Positions 22,147 to 47,871 of a DNA stretch of 47,871 nt are shown piece by piece; within the stretch, counting starts at the first letter, position 1; each line of letters starts with the position of its first letter. The DNA is from Moorena bouillonii PNG (GTDB lineage Bacteria > Cyanobacteriota > Cyanobacteriia > Cyanobacteriales > Coleofasciculaceae): assembly GCF_001942495.1 (NCBI RefSeq), contig NZ_MKZS01000001.1:2539753-2587623 (forward strand), written 5' to 3'. The position numbers were made by a program, and so were the translations under genes. The notes beneath the pieces were generated by a model that saw nothing but the letters and a program-made list of their open reading frames with translations, was not told where the DNA came from and did not search any database.

Positions 22147-22332
22147 GGAGTTGAAAGTTGACAAGTTACAGGTTGCTGACAAGTTGAAAGTTAACAAGTT
22201 ATAGGTTGCTGGCGAGTTGAAAGTTAACCAGTTACAGGTTGCAGGTTTTCTACTGAACCTTGGCCAAAAGGCCACGCGTGCGCGTTCAACCTTCAACCTT
22301 CAACCTTCAACCCCGTCACCTTCAACCCTCTA
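22147..22332. repeat. Degenerate direct repeats downstream of recJ
   Basis: Units like AGTTGAAAGTTAACAAGTTA and AGGTTGCTG recur three times. A GGCC-AAAA-GGCCACGCGTGCGCG palindrome lies at 22262-22284 and the heptamer CAACCTT recurs near 22290-22310. Confidence 0.6.
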
Positions 22333-38289: not shown

Positions 38290-38645
<356 letters not shown>

Positions 38646-39719: not shown

Positions 39720-40155
39720 AAGCTATATGAAATCCTCACTATAAAGTCTGAAATATGAAATATGAATTATGAAATATGAAGGTTGGCAGGTTAGCAGGTT
39801 GAAGGTTGAAGGTTGTTTGGTTGAAGGTTGTTTGGTTGAAGGTTGTTTGGTTGAAGGTTGAAGGTTGTTCGCGTAGCGTGGCCAAAGGCCAAGGTTAGCA
39901 GGTTGTTCGCGTAGCGTGGCCAAAGGCCAAGGTTAGCAGGTTGAACGCGATGGACGAAGTCCCGCTTTCAGCGATCGCGTGGCCGAAAGGCCAAGGTTTA
40001 AGGTTTAAGGGTGAACTTGAACTATAGCGGTTTTCATAGTAATCAGGTACACAGGATTTTTTTCCAATTCCCGATTCCCGATTCCCGATTCCCGATTCCC
40101 GACTCCCGACTCCCGACTCCCGATTCCCGATTCCCGACTCCCGATTCCCGATTCC
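39720..40155. repeat. Dense repeat cluster upstream of the CHAT gene
   Basis: GGTTGAA/GGTTGTTTGGTTGAA heptamer arrays at 39779-39868. Two 36-bp direct copies each contain TTCGCGTAGCGTGGCC-AAA-GGCCAAGG (39866-39936). A related GCGATCGCGTGGCCGAAAGG copy lies at 39973-39992. A run of about 12 TTCCCGA/CTCCCGA heptamers at 40069-40155 reads directly into the CHAT coding frame. Confidence 0.85.
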
Positions 40156-40212
40156 CTAGAAGAACAAGCCCAACAACTCTATGAAACAGGGCAATATCAA
40201 CAGGCGATACCG

Positions 40213-42636
40213 TTGTTGGAGCAAGTTATTACTAACTACAGCTACAGTGGCGACTTTATTGGTGAGATTAACTCTTTAGTTAATCTGGCTTTAGTTTATC
40301 AACGTTTGGGAAACTTCGAACAAGCTCAAGAAACACTATCCCAGAGTTATAGCAAATTATCACAACTCCATAATACCAAAGAACGTCAAGAATTACAAGC
40401 CCAAATCCTGTCAGTGGAAGGACAAGTATACTTATCTCTAGGTGATGCCAGAAAAGCCTTATCAAATTGGGAGCAAACTAGTGCTATTTACCAAGACCTA
40501 GGAGACCTAAATCGATTTACAGAAAGTCAGATTTACCAAGTGCAAGCCCTACGATCATTAGGGTTATATAACCAAGCCACTAAAACCTTAACTCAAATCA
40601 AGGAAACGCTTCAAGAGCAACCGGATAGCAAACTCAAAAGTACCGCCCTCCAATACCTAGGTAATATCCTGCGCCGAGTGGGTAAATTCCAAGACTCTCA
40701 AGAAATTTTACAACAAAGTTTAGCTATAGCCGAAACATTAGCAGATCAAACCTTGATTGCTGAAAGTCTACTCAGTTTGGGGGATACAGCTAGATTACAA
40801 GCTGAAAGTCTACCCAGTTTGAGGGATAGAGCTAGATCACAACAGAAAAGAAAAGACGCAATGGCTTTCTATAAACGGGTTGTGGAGGAATCTCCCTTAC
40901 CGGATCTTAAGATTCAGGGACAGTTAAATCAACTGAGTATACTGATAGCTAACCAAGAGTGGTCACAAGCCAGAGCATTATTGTCAGCGATAGAGTATAC
41001 TTTAACGACATTATCTCCAAATCAAACAGCAATAAGTGCTAGAATTAATCTAGCCCAAACCCTTTCAAAAAGTAAAAACTCAAATCTCAAATCTCCCAAC
41101 TCCCTGGCTACTTATCTCGCCGATGCCCTTAAGCTGGCTAGGGATTTAGGAGATCAAAGAGCGGAAGCTGAAGCCATTGGTAACTTGGGGAGGTTATACG
41201 AACAGCAATCACGTCTTGATGACGCCCAAAAATTGACCGAAAAAGCCTTACTCATTGCTCAACAAATCAAGGCTCCAGATTTAGGGTATCAATGGCAATG
41301 GCAACTGGGAAGAATCCTCAACCAAAAAGACGATAAAAAAAACGCGATTGACCGAAGGTCACGCTCCGCGATCGCTGCCTATTCCCAATCCGTGCAAACC
41401 CTCAAATCTATCCGTAGCGATTTAGTCGCAATTAGTAGCGATATTCAGTTTGAGTTTCGAGAGAGTGTCGAACCAGTCTACCGAGAATTAGTAGGACTAC
41501 TCCTAGAACCGAATGCATCTCAAGAAAACCTCAAACAAGCACGAGATGTGATTGAATCCCTGCAACTAGCGGAACTAGACAACTTTTTTCGCGATGCCTG
41601 TCTAGATGCCAAACCAGCTAATATCGACGAAATAGACCCCAACGCTGCTATCGTCTATACCATTATCTTGCCAGACCGCCTGGAAGTAATTGTCACCTTA
41701 CCCGGACAACCTCTGCGCCAGATCACCACTAACTTACCCAAAACAGAAATAGAACAACAACTCGCTTCGGTAAAGACAAATATTACTAGGCCTTGGCGAG
41801 ATCTTCAAAAGAAAAACTTACAAACAATACACGATTGGTTAATCAGCCCGATTCAAACCGAACTAACCAAGAGTAACATCCGCACCCTAGTATTTATCCC
41901 AGACGGAGCCCTGCGCAATCTTCCCATGTCTGTGCTTTATGACGGGGAAAACTATTTGGTCGAGAAATATAGTATTGCGGTAGCACCTAGCTTACAATTA
42001 ATCGACCCTAAAGCAAATGTCAGACAAAACGTTTCTGCTCTGAGTGCTGGAGTGACGGAAACTCGTCCCCATCGTCCCAATTTAGCACCACTTCCTGGGG
42101 TGAAGGTGGAATTAGAGAATATCAAGGCTCAAATTCCTTCATCGATTCTACTCAATGAATCCTTTACTGAATCCAACTTCAATACCGAAGTTAATACCTC
42201 TGGTTACGAAATCGTTCATCTGGCCACTCATGGTGAATTTAGTTCAGTAGCTGAAAAAACCTTTCTGCTGACCTGGGATGACGTGATCAATCTCAATGAG
42301 TTAAATAGTCTAATCAGAGCCGATCAAAAGCAAAAAAATCCCATTGAATTACTCGTCCTCAGTGCTTGTCAGACAGCCGCAGGAGACTCCCGAGCGGCGT
42401 TGGGATTGGCTGGAGTAGCAGTGCGATCTGGTGCACGCAGTACCCTTGCTAGTCTCTGGTCTGTGGACGATGTAGCCACTACAGAGTTAATGACTCGCTT
42501 CTATCAGAGGTTAGCTAAGGGCAAGGTTACCAAGGCTGAAGCTCTGCGACAAGCTCAACAGGAGTTGTTGCAGAGGCAGGAATTTAATCACCCCTATTAC
42601 TGGTCGGCTTTTATTTTGCTGGGAAATTGGTTGTGA
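40213..42636 (+). CDS. TPR-CHAT protein, N-terminus missing
   Basis: At least 807 aa. The first ~400 residues are tetratricopeptide repeats (LVNLALVYQRLGNFEQAQETL, ALQYLGNILRRVGKFQDSQEI). The C-terminal ~330 form a caspase-like CHAT protease domain with the dyad His673 (HLATHGEF) and Cys719 (LVLSACQTAAGDSR) and the usual end FYQRLAKGKVTKAEALRQAQ...HPYYWSAFILLGNW. The start is doubtful: TTG 40213 is the first usable codon, yet homologous TPR sequence continues in frame upstream (EEQAQQLYETGQYQQAIPL) to 40156, where heptamers begin. The signal peptide normally present is absent. An 8-codon repeat insertion lies at 41344-41367. Confidence 0.85.
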   Translation: MLEQVITNYSYSGDFIGEINSLVNLALVYQRLGNFEQAQETLSQSYSKLSQLHNTKERQELQAQILSVEGQVYLSLGDARKALSNWEQTSAIYQDLGDLNRFTESQIYQVQALRSLGLYNQATKTLTQIKETLQEQPDSKLKSTALQYLGNILRRVGKFQDSQEILQQSLAIAETLADQTLIAESLLSLGDTARLQAESLPSLRDRARSQQKRKDAMAFYKRVVEESPLPDLKIQGQLNQLSILIANQEWSQARALLSAIEYTLTTLSPNQTAISARINLAQTLSKSKNSNLKSPNSLATYLADALKLARDLGDQRAEAEAIGNLGRLYEQQSRLDDAQKLTEKALLIAQQIKAPDLGYQWQWQLGRILNQKDDKKNAIDRRSRSAIAAYSQSVQTLKSIRSDLVAISSDIQFEFRESVEPVYRELVGLLLEPNASQENLKQARDVIESLQLAELDNFFRDACLDAKPANIDEIDPNAAIVYTIILPDRLEVIVTLPGQPLRQITTNLPKTEIEQQLASVKTNITRPWRDLQKKNLQTIHDWLISPIQTELTKSNIRTLVFIPDGALRNLPMSVLYDGENYLVEKYSIAVAPSLQLIDPKANVRQNVSALSAGVTETRPHRPNLAPLPGVKVELENIKAQIPSSILLNESFTESNFNTEVNTSGYEIVHLATHGEFSSVAEKTFLLTWDDVINLNELNSLIRADQKQKNPIELLVLSACQTAAGDSRAALGLAGVAVRSGARSTLASLWSVDDVATTELMTRFYQRLAKGKVTKAEALRQAQQELLQRQEFNHPYYWSAFILLGNWL
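41344..41367. repeat. 24-bp HIP1-associated palindromic module in the CHAT gene
   Basis: GCGATTGACC-GAA-GGTCACGCTCC stands immediately before GCGATCGC (41368-41375). It is in frame and adds eight codons (AIDRRSRS) just before AIAAYSQSV, a normal TPR-CHAT linker. Confidence 0.8.
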
Positions 42637-42880
42637 AAATTAGGGATTAGGGTGTGGGGTGTGGGGTGTGGGGAGGGGAGATAGGGAGATAGGGAGATAG
42701 GGAGTCGGGAATCGGGAGTCGGGAATCGGGAGTCGGGAGTCGGGAACCTTAACCTTTACTTCGACTGCTTAAGGAACTGGAGCTGATAACAGTAACTAGA
42801 AATATAGTAGTTGTATTTGGTGCGTTCGCGTAGCGTGGCCTACGGCCAATCGCTTTTTTGTGCTGCTGACGAAGTTAGTG
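42637..42880. repeat. Heptamer and octamer runs, and a 24-bp HIP1-associated module
   Basis: GTGTGGG heptamers at 42652-42674, GAGATAGG octamers at 42677-42704, then a TCGGGAG/TCGGGAA heptamer run at 42705-42747. The last is the reverse complement of the array in front of the CHAT gene. On the minus strand, 42830-42853 is a 24-bp module GCGATTGGCC-GTA-GGCCACGCTAC followed by the degenerate HIP1 GCGAACGC. Confidence 0.8.
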
Positions 42881-43207
42881 CGTCAGTGCAATAGTTTTTA
42901 TTACCCCTTTTTCCACCTTTAACATTCTTACAACTTTTACAACACTTATCACCCTTTACACGCAGATTGTGTTAATGCAACAGTTTTTATGACCCCCTTA
43001 ACTCTTTCCTCTGTTACCACCTTTACCTCCCTTTAGCTAGAAATAGCGTCAATGCAACAGTTTTTATGACCCCCTTAACTCTTTACTCTCTTACAATCCT
43101 TACCACTCTCTAGCTAGAGATAGTGTCAATGCAATAGTTTTTCTAACCCCTTGCATCTTCTGAGAACTTGTGTTAAAATAACAGTATCGTTAAAGCAATG
43201 GTTTTTC
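42881..43207 (+). promoter_or_regulatory. Five spaced direct repeats upstream of the HTH gene
   Basis: The motif GT(C/T)AATGCAA(C/T)AGTTTTTATGACCCC recurs with its start at 42882, 42971, 43048, 43125 and (degenerate, ending at the start codon region) 43189. The spacings are 89, 77, 77 and 64 bp. Copies 2 and 3 extend to a shared CCCCCTTAACTCTTT. They could be operators for the HTH protein encoded just downstream, or iterons. Confidence 0.65.
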
Positions 43208-43211
43208 CGCC

Positions 43212-43628
43212 ATGATGATTTCTACCGCCCAAGCCGCTGAATTACTAGGTGTTTCTGCCACTCGCGTCCGTTTCCTTCTGGGCAAGGGCAGAGTGAAGGG
43301 GGCTTATAAGGTGGGTAGAACTTGGGTGATTCCTCTATTTGACGGTATGCCGGTGGTCACCCCTGGTACTCGCGGACCGAAGCGGAATTGGTCAAAGCGC
43401 ACGGAGTACACTAAGGCTGTGATCCATGTTAATCAGAAGGTAATTCGCGAAAATCTCAAGAGCGGGGAGCGCAACCCTGTGATTACGGTCAAACGGGGTT
43501 CTAAAAATACTTATGGTCATACAGTAGAAGTCAATGGCCCCTGTCGGGTGATGTATCGTCCAGATGATCCATTACATTGTGGGGCTAGGGTCTGGATTGA
43601 GACGATTTCTGATTTTAAGGTCAGCTGA
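43212..43628 (+). CDS. Helix-turn-helix (excisionase/MerR-like) DNA-binding protein
   Basis: The 138-aa protein has an N-terminal excisionase-type winged HTH (STAQAAELLGVSATRVRFLL, then GAYKVGRTWVIP). The C-terminal ~75 residues form a beta-rich domain of unknown function (NPVITVKRGSKNTYGHTVEV, MYRPDDPLHCGARVWIETI). The start is the first of two adjacent ATGs. The five direct repeats in the 330 bp upstream suggest autoregulation or a repeat-binding role. It is not part of a recognisable phage or integrase module here. Confidence 0.75.
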   Translation: MMISTAQAAELLGVSATRVRFLLGKGRVKGAYKVGRTWVIPLFDGMPVVTPGTRGPKRNWSKRTEYTKAVIHVNQKVIRENLKSGERNPVITVKRGSKNTYGHTVEVNGPCRVMYRPDDPLHCGARVWIETISDFKVS

Positions 43629-43665
43629 TTTGGCTACTTGAAGGACGACTTTCAGCATCGGATTT

Positions 43666-43863
43666 ATGAACAAAACACCAGACTTTGATGATGAGATGCT
43701 ACCTGAGTACCAGTTTGACTATCGCAAGGCAAAGCCGAATCGTTTTGCTCAGCAGCAACCAACTAATGCGATTGGCCTCTGGCCACGCTGCGCGATCGCA
43801 ACCAAGTTCCAAAGACAACTTAGTGCAATTCGCTCTCAACTTCAAAAATTAGGTTTGTTGTAA
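43666..43863 (+). CDS. Small antitoxin-like protein with a repeat-encoded tail
   Basis: 65 aa starting MNKTPDFDDEMLPEYQFDYR and KAKPNRFAQQ, resembling short acidic antitoxin-like proteins common in cyanobacteria. From residue 35 the frame enters a 24-bp HIP1-associated module (AIGLWPRC, 43768-43791) and then the HIP1 octamer itself, so the normal C-terminus is displaced or truncated. The usual toxin partner is not seen. Confidence 0.55.
   Translation: MNKTPDFDDEMLPEYQFDYRKAKPNRFAQQQPTNAIGLWPRCAIATKFQRQLSAIRSQLQKLGLL
43768..43791. repeat. 24-bp HIP1-associated palindromic module
   Basis: GCGATTGGCC-TCT-GGCCACGCTGC directly followed by GCGATCGC (43792-43799); in frame with the small ORF 43666-43863. 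A near-identical copy occurs at 44181-44204. Confidence 0.8.
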
Positions 43864-43946
43864 GTGAGTTGTTAAACCCTACAATAACAAGTTACTCCTT
43901 ATCAATTGTAGAAAAGTATGCTCCAATTTAAAGGAGTGTGAGAGAA

Positions 43947-44174
43947 TTGAACAAGTTAAGCATTTCTCTATTTCCTATGACAGTAGTGGAGTTATTTCCT
44001 ACTCTGAAAGGTTTAAACCGTGCAGACAAACTGAAAGTCATTCAGTTTTTGGTAGCAGAGCTAGCTAGGAAAGAGGAACCTACCTTAGAACCAGGAGCTA
44101 CCTATCCAGTTTGGTCGCCCCTTAACTCTCATCAAGCCGCTAATCAACTCGCTCAACTGTTGGAATCGGAGTAA
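43947..44174 (+). CDS. Small antitoxin-like protein of unknown function
   Basis: About 75 aa. The core MTVVELFPTLKGLNRADKLK, VIQFLVAELARKEEP and YPVWSPLNSHQAANQLAQLL looks like a helical antitoxin-type protein. The start is open: AAGGAG at 43931-43936 suits TTG 43947, GTG 43938 is too close to it, and ATG 43977 gives the familiar MTVVEL opening. No toxin gene follows; the next gene is a DUF433 protein. Confidence 0.6.
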   Translation: MNKLSISLFPMTVVELFPTLKGLNRADKLKVIQFLVAELARKEEPTLEPGATYPVWSPLNSHQAANQLAQLLESE

Positions 44175-44180
44175 TGTTAT

Positions 44181-44204
44181 GCGATTGGCCTCTGGCCACG
44201 CTTC
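44181..44204. repeat. 24-bp HIP1-associated palindromic module
   Basis: GCGATTGGCC-TCT-GGCCACGCTTC, directly followed by GCGATCGC (44205-44212). It lies between two small genes. Confidence 0.8.
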
Positions 44205-44293
44205 GCGATCGCATCAAACTAGACAAAACCAGTAGCAGCTTTCCTAGTGCTAGGGTAGTTAATTATGGATTCAGTCTTTTAAGAATAAAGGAT

Positions 44294-44804: not shown

Positions 44805-45683
44805 CTAATATAAAAACCAATCGAAATTTCGGCTAATCAACAATTCTGTCTTCTTGGCATGGTGAGTGTTTTTCATCGCAATAGGTTGTATAGCAAATTC
44901 ATAGCGACTTGCTAGATCCCTTGTTTCTTCTGTATTGTCATAGCTCATCAGAAAATCGCCTTCTAATTTGCTAGCAAGTTTAAATAGAGCTTCATGATCA
45001 ACTGCTGAATATCGATAGAGCCTGCGCCCAGCTTTTAAATAAGGTGGATCAATAAAATAAATAGCATCGTTGCGGTGATAATTTTGCTCACAAACCTCAA
45101 ACCCATCCCCAGCAATAAATTTAATTTTTGTCTTGATTTCAGCAATAGAAAGTATGCGCTTTTTCAGGGTTTGAGGATACCAGCGTGACGTGATTCCTTT
45201 GCCATTTTCCCCATTTTTCATAAAACTAGCACCATCAGCCAGAATTCCACCACGATTAACGCGATTTTTAACTACTGTTGCGAAAGCGAGAGATTCAAGA
45301 GATTCATTTGCAGAATCAATAGCTTGCTTAGCACTCTTTGCAGTTAGATGAAAATTGACAATAGTTTCGGCTAGCCATTCGGCACCACCACCTAAAATGA
45401 CCTGCCACACAGCAGCAACCCCTTCATCTTTTTCTACCATAGTCACTCTACCTACTAAATTATCGAAAGCAGCAGTAAGACTGACTATACCTCCACCAGC
45501 AAAAGGTTCAAAAAGTTCCTTATCTGTACCACCTTTATTATACAACCATTGGCGAATTTGGGGTATTAGCCAAGTTTTACCACCAGCATAGCGAAATGGG
45601 CTACGTTGCGGCACACTAGCTACATTTATGACTTTTTTATGACTGGTGAGAGAGGCAGTATTAAATAGCTCAAGTTGAGTCAT
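44805..45683 (-). CDS. D12-class (Dam-like) DNA adenine N6-methyltransferase
   Basis: The 292-aa enzyme transfers methyl from SAM to adenine N6. The order is that of the alpha (D12) class: SPFRYAGGKTWLIPQIRQWL (29-48), ELFEPFAGGGIVSLTAAF with the SAM-binding loop, and the catalytic DPPY at 212-215 in IYFIDPPYLKAGRRLY. Chemistry is well supported; the recognition site is unknown. It follows the NotI-like endonuclease gene on the same strand by about 150 bp (with GAGCAGG heptamers in the gap), suggesting a restriction-modification pair. Confidence 0.92.
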   Translation of the reverse strand: MTQLELFNTASLTSHKKVINVASVPQRSPFRYAGGKTWLIPQIRQWLYNKGGTDKELFEPFAGGGIVSLTAAFDNLVGRVTMVEKDEGVAAVWQVILGGGAEWLAETIVNFHLTAKSAKQAIDSANESLESLAFATVVKNRVNRGGILADGASFMKNGENGKGITSRWYPQTLKKRILSIAEIKTKIKFIAGDGFEVCEQNYHRNDAIYFIDPPYLKAGRRLYRYSAVDHEALFKLASKLEGDFLMSYDNTEETRDLASRYEFAIQPIAMKNTHHAKKTELLISRNFDWFLY

Positions 45684-45835
45684 TGGCTTATAGCAATTCT
45701 ACGACTTGTTAGGTACAAATTTCTGGTTTTTAGGGAGCAGGGAGCAGGGAGCAGGGAGCATATAATAGGAAAGAGGGAAGAGGGAAGAGGGAAAAAATAA
45801 TGTGTACCTCATAGCTACGATAAACGGCTTATCCT
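45684..45835. repeat. GGGAGCA and AGAGGGA heptamers
   Basis: GAGCAGG units at about 45735-45760 and AGAGGGA units at 45770-45792, between the two restriction-modification genes. Confidence 0.8.
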
Positions 45836-46708
45836 TTATTGTAAAGGAAGATCTACTATGGTTTGAGTATCTGGAGGATTATCTAGTTTATCATCAAGTT
45901 TCTGTTGAAGCACTTCAAGGAAATCTTCTACGTTACCAGCTTTCGGTGTTGAAATAGCGTTAATTGCTGCCCAGTATTCTGTATAAATTACATCGTGTAA
46001 CGTCAAATTGAACTTATTTTTTTCCTGTTCTAGGGTGTAAAGATGCCAGGCAACTTCCGATTTATCCCATTCAACCTGTGGCAATTGTGGCAGAGTATCA
46101 AAGAAACTCTTTTGTAAAACGATTACCTGTTTCTTATTCCACTCACGAAAAATTGACCCCTTATACAAAAGCTGAGGGAGGAGGCGTTTGCGTGAGGATG
46201 ATAGATAATCTGGACTAGGATAATAAGTTGTCAATTTTGCCCAATCTATAGTTTTCCAGTCTTCAGGATTACTAATATACCTTTCAAAGGGTTTTCTAAC
46301 GTTACCAGAAATATAAACAGCTTGCACTTCTACAGAGCCAAAATCTAAAACTTTTCCTCGATCATCATAAGAAACTAAGACTAGATCAATATTTCCAGCG
46401 GACTGACCATTGGCATCTTTCAAGCGAACCTCTGTCAGGGAAGTCCAATTAGTTTCCTCTCCAAAGAAATAATTAGCGGCATTTTCAGCAATTAGCCAAT
46501 CCTGTCGGAAGCGAACTGGACAAGTAATGACCGATTCATCCCTGTGATAGATACTACATACACCTAGAGGATTGTTTGCCTTATCTTTGGTGCAATTCGG
46601 CACCTTATTGTTATAAGGACACAGTTTGTAGCGACGATACCGCTTTGCCTGTTCTGTGAAGTTGTTAGTTGGGAATCCGAAGACCTCTGCAAGAGGATTG
46701 TTGGACAT
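45836..46708 (-). CDS. NotI-like type II restriction endonuclease
   Basis: The 290-aa protein carries the features of NotI: four cysteines C30, C39, C51 and C63 (CPY..., GVCSIY, ITCPVRF) matching the NotI metal-binding Cys4 site, then RQDWLIAENAANYFFGEE. The nuclease core of PD-(D/E)XK type ends in E-x-Q: D108 in GNIDLVLV, and E127/Q129 in FGSVEVQAVYISG. KPFERYISNPEDW and YYPSPDYLSSSRKRLLPQL follow, as in other NotI-type proteins. It is about 90 aa shorter than NotI itself. The methyltransferase next to it is adenine-specific, so the target may differ from GCGGCCGC. Confidence 0.85.
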   Translation of the reverse strand: MSNNPLAEVFGFPTNNFTEQAKRYRRYKLCPYNNKVPNCTKDKANNPLGVCSIYHRDESVITCPVRFRQDWLIAENAANYFFGEETNWTSLTEVRLKDANGQSAGNIDLVLVSYDDRGKVLDFGSVEVQAVYISGNVRKPFERYISNPEDWKTIDWAKLTTYYPSPDYLSSSRKRLLPQLLYKGSIFREWNKKQVIVLQKSFFDTLPQLPQVEWDKSEVAWHLYTLEQEKNKFNLTLHDVIYTEYWAAINAISTPKAGNVEDFLEVLQQKLDDKLDNPPDTQTIVDLPLQ

Positions 46709-47038
46709 ATCAATTTAGTATAGTACTTATGTAAATCTAAGACTACCGTAAGAAGGTCAAGATATTGATTAAAGTTGTACCGCGAAGGGTGAAGCTAGAT
46801 GATTGCTTACGGATGAACAGCTAAGGTGGCAATTTATACTCAGCAGCAATCCATTGATGCGAACGCGAAGCGTGACCGTTCGCGTAGCGTGGCCTTTTGG
46901 CCAAGGTCAATCGCAACCAAGTTCCAGCAAACTTCCTAGTGCAATTCGCTACTTGCCCGATTGTCACGTTTCTTCGGACTGCCCTATAAAATAGATACAG
47001 CTCAACCTTACCATTAGGCTCAAAATCAGGAGACTTAA
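46709..47038. repeat. Intergenic region with a long HIP1-associated module
   Basis: On the minus strand 46884-46914 is a 31-bp variant (24 + 7) with GGCCAAAAGGCCACGCTAC beside degenerate HIP1 GCGAACGG; GCGAAGCGTGACC precedes it. Open frames across it are repeat-derived. The divergent promoters of the NotI-like gene and the gene at 47039 should lie here. Confidence 0.65.
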
Positions 47039-47644: not shown

Positions 47645-47871
47645 TACTATTAGGAAAGGGAGCAGGGAGCAGGGAGCAGGGAGCAGGGAGCAGGTAACAC
47701 GTAAAAGGTAACAGGGAAGAAGGTAAAAATTATGTGTACCTCATTAGGGTAAAATATACTACTTTAGCAAAGGGAACAGGGAAAATAGAAAAAATTCGTC
47801 TACCTCATTCTCCCGATTCCCGATTCCCGATTCCCGATTCCCGATTCCCGATTCCCGACTCCCGATTCCCG
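47645..47871. repeat. Terminal heptamer arrays
   Basis: GAGCAGG heptamers at 47660-47694 and a TTCCCGA array (about eight units, one CTCCCGA) at 47813-47871 running off the window. The same heptamer precedes the CHAT gene at 40069-40155. Confidence 0.85.

Follow-up and report, generated by a model that had tools for sequence, protein, structure and literature searches.

The closest described relatives of the element treated here are the small dispersed repeats (SDRs) of cyanobacteria, which have reportedly been proposed as perhaps the smallest mobile DNA. SDR families are said to be 21 to 27 nt long, to share a hairpin fold with compensatory changes, to lie in heptamer repeats and, in some cases, to be nested in themselves. 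Their describers reportedly suggested an RNA intermediate, and one family, SDR5, is said to be exclusive to the octamer HIP1 (highly iterated palindrome 1, GCGATCGC). We know of no enzyme that has been assigned to SDR elements. In the passages of PMC4390886, a 2015 article on HIP, that concern SDR5, insertion takes place precisely between HIP1 nucleotides 3 and 4, directed cutting at HIP1 is mentioned as a partial explanation, and the reference given is Elhai et al. 2008 (Genome Res. 18:1484). Here we analyze a 47,871-nt stretch of the Moorena bouillonii PNG genome (NZ_MKZS01000001.1, positions 2,539,753 to 2,587,623; hereafter, the window) that contains a 24-nt hairpin module repeatedly placed within HIP1. 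An earlier note, made from the sequence of the window alone, had put forward the association of module and HIP1 as a rule of its own; as far as the SDR5 passages go, it had already been published for that family (PMC4390886). The Moorena modules are very probably copies of an SDR-type (SDR5-like) mobile element, very small and non-autonomous, inserted at HIP1.

Empty and filled sites

Four modules are exact matches to the pattern GCGATTGRCC-N3-GGYCACGCTNC (hereafter, the strict pattern), at 41344-41367, 43768-43791, and 44181-44204 on the plus strand and at 42830-42853 on the minus strand, as the earlier note had located them. Scanning the window at up to one mismatch gave no further match to this pattern, and 100 dinucleotide shuffles of the window gave none at all. 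The module is indeed followed by HIP1 or a degenerate HIP1, GCGATCGC in three of the copies and GCGAACGC in the minus-strand one.

One of these copies lies in a gene with Pfam CHAT and TPR matches, and related genes occur in three further genomes of the genus. We aligned ten sequences, i.e., the window, one paralogue from the same genome, and eight from other genomes (G and L followed by numbers are genome and locus labels of the comparison set). The site is empty at GCGAT^CGC in seven of the ten, six with an intact GCGATCGC and one with GCGATTGC. The other three carry inserts: 24 bp in the window (stem TGACC, ending in T), 24 bp in L146 (stem GTTCC, ending in A), and 48 bp in L148, the last of which we read, from its sequence, as one element within the loop of another. 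Filled and empty alleles at this site thus bear out the proposal that a short element, mobile or copied, inserts exactly at HIP1, and both of the signs that it called for in relatives, empty GCGATCGC sites and 24-bp steps, were seen, together with a step of 48 bp. Five of the ten sequences come from G001, so that some are paralogues and the alignment shows gain or loss rather than dated events.

Among all the DNA compared, alignments ran without gaps across the junction for 49 of 269 copies. By our own reading, 16 of these 49 rows set a filled HIP1-type copy against an intact GCGATCGC, at about 10 sites including the CHAT one (e.g., L059, L064, and L085 versus L097, L154 versus L159, and L191 versus L193). 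The remaining 33 rows fell in heptamer arrays or module chains, or had no intact HIP1 in the alignment, and were left unused. A tandem array of ca. 31-bp HIP1 units in L034 (ca. 850-1100) has the module in two units and bare HIP1 in the others, a filled/empty series within one genome.

Structure and boundaries of the element

In the 24-nt unit, a hairpin (5 bp, 3-nt loop) is followed by a tail of 11 nt, CGCTNCGCGAA or its T-ended form, and the whole is placed at GCGAT^CGC; lengths of 24 or 25 nt occur, with loops of 3 to 4 nt. The strict pattern with its loop widened to N2-5 gave 105 matches in the whole genome (8.32 Mb) and 0 when reversed as a control, and every one of the matches listed measured 24 bp, i.e., had a 3-nt loop. 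Further counts were made in 1.25 Mb of Moorena DNA (1.2 Mb of genome stretches plus the window, with overlaps below 1 kb), which holds 596 GCGATCGC sites. There, 104 occurrences of the 11-mer CGCTACGCGAA and 24 of CGCTACGCGAT compare with 0 for four similar control 11-mers, and under a permissive rule a hairpin precedes 131 of the 147 tails of the form CGCT[AT]CGCGA[AT]. A strict rule (5-bp arms with at least 4 pairs, a loop of 3 or 4, and the tail CGCTNNGCGA[AT]) led from 190 tails to 149 distinct copies.

The stem is variable. Distinct fully paired copies in all the DNA compared, loci of other genera included, number 243, and their 5' arms are of 18 different kinds (TGGCC in 132, TGACC in 33, TGCGC in 25, TCGGC in 15, and others). 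Since many paired stems go with a constant tail, the unit is the hairpin plus the tail, and the stem seems changeable if pairing is kept. One base of the tail varies (A 114, T 18, G 16, and C 1 in the 149 copies). Within the 243-copy set, loops occur along with their reverse complements (GTA 59 and TAC 41, TTT 32 and AAA 18, GAA 14 and TTC 8), and TAT and ATA are also found together, as if the center of the hairpin sometimes flipped. Loop reversal was not borne out by 30 pairs of copies with similar flanks, in which the loop was reversed in 1 and otherwise changed in 9, the element being identical in 15.

The A-ended copies of L146 and L191 differ from their empty sites by pure 24-nt insertions between T and C, without duplication. 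The duplication of GCGAT around the unit that had been described is therefore apparent in T-ended copies, in which the right half reads GCGATCGC again, and absent from A-ended ones, which read GCGAACGC. The final T is found in 28 of the 59 copies with GAT as left flank versus 3 of the 90 others (Fisher p ~7e-11), and in 0 of the 19 copies in AACCT heptamers, where the left flank ends in T too. A one-base target duplication would give T in these heptamers as well. Some pairs with similar flanks have A in one sequence and T in the other (L053 versus L093 and L244; L060 versus L063). We infer that the element itself ends in A, that T-ended copies are later changes, and that the T comes about through restoration of HIP1 at HIP1-type sites.

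Target sites and relation to genes

When the flanks of the 149 copies were joined, 30 gave exact HIP1 (ca. 420-fold over background), 7 gave HIP1 with one mismatch, 19 gave AACCT heptamers, and 93 gave other sequences, including CAGC-type heptamers, hairpin loops, and chains with a further module after GCGAT. Directly after the insert, C is found in 122 of the 149 copies, and directly before it T in 108 and A in 31. Given this excess and yet a majority of copies elsewhere, HIP1 is strongly preferred and not exclusive; as the sole target it does not stand, with 112 of the 149 copies more than one mismatch away from it. Boundaries are fixed only by sites with a known empty allele, so that in heptamers the boundary may be shifted by one T. 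Palindromic targets outside HIP1 were considered and set aside, the signal being weak (a stem of at least 5 in 9 of 80 versus ca. 4.6% of 5,000 controls).

The related forms that had been pointed out, which we place at 22261 and 39868-39929, do have the same type of hairpin but follow AACCT in heptamer-like repeats, not HIP1. What had been taken for a 31-bp (24 + 7) version at 46884-46914 belongs in fact to a 48-nt insert that separates GCGAT from CGC and would correspond, judging from its sequence, to two nested 24-nt units. The heptamer TCCCGAT/TCCCGAC forms arrays in the window (40073-40158, 42697-42746, and 47811-47871), running in both directions, and alongside them, elsewhere, there are repeats of the AACCTTC and CAGCTAT types.

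The copy in the CHAT gene is in frame, as predicted, and adds AIDRRSRS to the protein. The open reading frame (ORF) at 43666, offered as another in-frame case, is a weak one: the match to its homologue in G001 (L177) stops before the module, and this divergence makes it poor evidence of coding tolerance; it had no Pfam match at E 0.01. Nor is tolerance of coding DNA supported as a general rule: copies are depleted from long open frames. Frames of at least 200 codons cross 6 of 34 HIP1-type copies, 2 of 18 heptamer copies, and 14 of 87 others (10 of the 149, at less than 500 bases from the end of a stretch, were excluded), versus 436 of 565 GCGATCGC sites and 1,356 of 2,000 random places. Sites close to the end of a stretch were likewise excluded from the 565, which do count GCGATCGC where it is the right-hand end of a module.

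Distribution and comparison with described repeats

The exact GGCC form with HIP1 on its right was found in 35 stretches, all of them Moorena records, in a collection of 84,980 species, a scan that may have passed over the records of the window itself. With the TGRCC form, 1 of 292 genomes drawn across the cyanobacterial phylum was positive, namely, this one, with 264 matches, other Moorena genomes not having been drawn. A generic form, GCGAT-N13-CGCTNCGCGA, was searched for in 195 genomes of the order and appeared in 123 of them, belonging to 65 of 95 genera, while reversed controls were negative in nearly every genome, with a single match in each of a few. Many genomes have one to four matches, ca. 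59 of the 195 have at least five (counted by hand), and addition of NCGC to the pattern leaves a match in 101. Among the order-wide matches listed, stems vary by genome (TCTCC, TTCCC, TGCGC, and others) and none is common to all. Pairing at the five positions reached 59% in 95 distinct 13-mers typed by hand from among these matches, versus 46% with shuffled arms (maximum of 53% in 2,000 shuffles), with all five pairs present in 36. In 97 copies typed by hand, from 25 further genomes of the order and chosen mainly to avoid repeats of a 13-mer, the end base is T in 61, A in 35, and G in 1.

Six genomes of family f6, which we take to be Nostocaceae (the order of Moorena presumably also contains Nostoc), were searched for GCGAT-N19-GCGATCGC, at the 24-bp step only. 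A hairpin was present in 18 of the 84 places typed, from four of the six genomes, versus ca. 1% of shuffles, and the places include GGGC-TAC-GCCC forms. As regards likeness to SDR5, these f6 modules share the 24-bp step at HIP1, whereas the Moorena stems (TGRCC, TGCGC, TCGGC, GTTCC, and others) are unlike the GGGC-GCCC of 9 of the 18 f6 hairpins. Exclusivity to HIP1 does not extend to Moorena, where ca. 75% of the broad family is found off HIP1; it could be kept solely by treating the Moorena HIP1 copies as a separate subfamily. The size, paired-stem variation, heptamer sites, and nesting described for other SDR families all have counterparts in Moorena; a difference is that here a single tail, CGCTNCGCGAA, joins HIP1, heptamer, and nested copies. 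Miniature inverted-repeat transposable elements differ in their target duplication, from which the A-ended copies of L146 and L191 are free, the T-ended ones being ambiguous. A parent transposon with the same terminal inverted repeats, at which no search was aimed, is not apparent from the 24 nt. The published SDR5 junction, as given in the corresponding part of PMC4390886, equals GCGAT^CGC read on the opposite strand, and Moorena has 30 exact copies in addition to empty GCGATCGC sites. Within an incomplete coverage of the literature, we found no published account of the Moorena modules, their several targets, the A/T end rule, or the order-wide tail, and the 2008 article by Elhai and colleagues may hold part of these features. 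What is added here to SDR5 is a form in Moorena that has stems of its own and a broader choice of targets, plus the order-wide generic form.

Mechanism and alternative explanations

Insertion, its boundaries at HIP1, nesting, variation of the stem with pairing, and the wider range of targets were all shown here, and a mobile SDR-like element could account for them as follows. A machinery that reads the hairpin shape plus the constant tail would act in trans on a single-stranded hairpin copy (RNA or single-stranded DNA [ssDNA]), which would be joined at a host-made cut in HIP1. PvuI-type enzymes cut CGAT^CG, at the same step as the insertion. A copy enters between T and C of GCGAT^CGC with no bases removed; T^C or A^C steps within heptamer repeats, and the loops of older copies, serve as entry points too. 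The change to a T end would rebuild GCGATCGC, making the site reusable and leading to tandem chains. We would put the single-strand part of this scheme at somewhat short of an even chance. More tentatively still, one old hairpin-reading insertion system may extend across much of the order, reading the short-stem shape plus the tail CGCTNCGCGA, with HIP1 as its main landing site and an A-to-T change at the junction that rebuilds HIP1 for repeated uptake; with recognition of shape and tail, each lineage could have evolved its own stem sequence.

Several points weigh against this picture. No mobilizing enzyme was identified, Y1 transposase and reverse transcriptase being the candidates examined, and the element is not enriched at the 18 Y1 loci of this genome (4 core matches in 58,659 bases versus 5.3 expected). 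The CHAT comparison mixes orthologues and paralogues, several of the 49 junction rows have 70 to 80% identity, and no tree tells gain apart from precise loss. The direction of the A-to-T step could also be the reverse. Order-wide, 59 of the 95 13-mers are not fully paired as a hairpin of 5 bp and 3 nt, some of which may use another stem and loop. There was no strand-specific G.U signal indicative of RNA in the 58 copies with one mismatch (GT plus TG 2, AC plus CA 4, and AA 32), a test that rested on too few pairs; in the 95 13-mers, AC plus CA (33) exceeded GT plus TG (10), from which we draw no inference, since many of them may fold differently.

Which enzyme could be responsible was approached by profile searches in 30 hand-picked genomes, mostly module-rich and a few module-poor, in which the presence of Y1 transposase or of reverse transcriptase did not settle the role of either. 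RNA-mediated copying by a resident reverse transcriptase, from a group II intron or other source and primed at a HIP1 nick, is possible but rather doubtful. This genome has 42 RVT_1 matches, and a structure retained while the stem sequence varies would fit such a route; the lack of a strand-specific wobble signal does not, and G397 has 19 modules without any RVT_1 match (in a draft of 540 contigs), while G408 has 67 modules with 1 match and G417 has 31 modules with 72. We consider it unlikely that a Y1 transposase cuts ssDNA at the hairpin and inserts the copy, in the manner of IS200/IS605 or of repetitive extragenic palindromic (REP) sequences and REPINs with their REP-associated tyrosine transposases (RAYTs). 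One end of REP/REPIN repeats bears an invariant tag, GTAG or CGTC. The Moorena element resembles them as a short hairpin in many copies with a possible GTAG on one strand (the complement of the commonest tail reads GTAG beside the hairpin), and PF01797 has 18 matches in this genome and is present in 29 of the 30 chosen. However, it inserts in a defined octamer, the base that gives GTAG is A in only 114 of the 149 copies and also varies among the order-wide matches listed, so the tag is not constant, G348 has 28 modules and no PF01797 match at E 0.001, and no excess of copies was seen at the Y1 loci of this genome, although one of them (L129) is flanked on both sides.

Spread by homologous recombination and gene conversion among copies and their flanks, with no present transposition, is quite improbable. 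A match in G003 that begins at the module at 44181, as if joined there, and the identical elements in half of the 30 similar-flank pairs would agree with it, but at the CHAT site the difference between alleles is exactly 24 or 48 bp, alleles differ by the element at ca. 10 places with unrelated flanks, and gene conversion alone does not put a copy into a new HIP1. Least likely of all, to the point of being hardly credible, is the view that the modules serve a conserved function, as terminator, regulatory RNA, or protein segment, instead of being mobile DNA. Hairpins located mostly outside long open frames are what this view would lead one to expect; presence in some and absence from others of a set of similar gene copies at one site, and a stem that is free in sequence, with none in common among the order-wide matches listed, are not.

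In L129, a Y1 gene (1501-1860) has the element on each side, at 417 and 2414, and the left flank resembles that of the copy in L112, perhaps as part of a larger repeat. A BLAST search of plasmids with a window copy gave as its best hit a short match to a Moorena plasmid, at E 0.06, and the others listed had E values of at least 0.7.

Other features of the window

The modules and related hairpins of the window are collected in Table 1.

Table 1. Hairpin modules and related hairpins in the window
Feature	Position	Strand	Site or context
TGACC-GAA-GGTCA-CGCTCCGCGAT, 24 nt	41349..41372	+	HIP1 (GCGAT^CGC), within TPR-CHAT gene 40213-42636
TGGCC-GTA-GGCCA-CGCTACGCGAA, 24 nt	42825..42848	-	Between GCGAT and CGC; intergenic relative to ORFs of at least 60 aa
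TGGCC-TCT-GGCCA-CGCTGCGCGAT, 24 nt	43773..43796	+	In HIP1
TGGCC-TCT-GGCCA-CGCTTCGCGAT, 24 nt	44186..44209	+	In HIP1
48-nt insert, outer TGACC-loop-GGTCA, inner TGGCC-AAAA-GGCCA (46879-46903) in loop	46862..46909	-	GCGAT/CGC
TGGCC-TTT-GGCCA-CGCTACGCGAA, 24 nt	39868..39891	-	AACCT heptamer array
24-nt element, type as 39868..39891	39906..39929	-	Same heptamer array
24-bp HIP1 module with other stem, GCGAT-GGAC-GAA-GTCC-CGCTTTCA	39947..39970	+	Before GCGATCGC
TGGCC-TTTC-GGCCA hairpin, degenerate tail	39969..39993	-	After AAACCT
TGGCC-AAAA-GGCCA hairpin, degenerate tail	22261..22285	+	After GAACCT
Stem TGCGC-GAT-GCGCA, intact tail CGCTACGCGAA, 24 nt	38551..38574	+	

The module at 43773..43796 has an identical counterpart with similar flanks in G001 (L177). 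In G003 (L176), a 95% match to the window starts at the GCGAT of the module at 44186..44209; there (1133-1501), the match to the window from 44181 onward adjoins a copy of the 43740 segment (window 43768-44212), which suggests a rearrangement with a break at a module. Three 77-bp direct repeats, with 69 to 77% identity to the first, lie at 42926-43156, upstream of a helix-turn-helix gene at 43212. Among the modules, on the minus strand (44805-46708), a D12-class adenine DNA methyltransferase (PF02086) adjoins a NotI-family restriction endonuclease (PF12183), likely a restriction-modification pair.

Implications

With its many copies, clean empty sites, nesting, and several targets, Moorena provides material to define the insertion rule of these elements. 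The order-wide survey suggests that the machinery reads the tail and the fold and not the sequence of the stem, which narrows the search for it, and genomes that are rich in modules but gave no detected Y1 transposase, or no detected reverse transcriptase, are useful negative controls.

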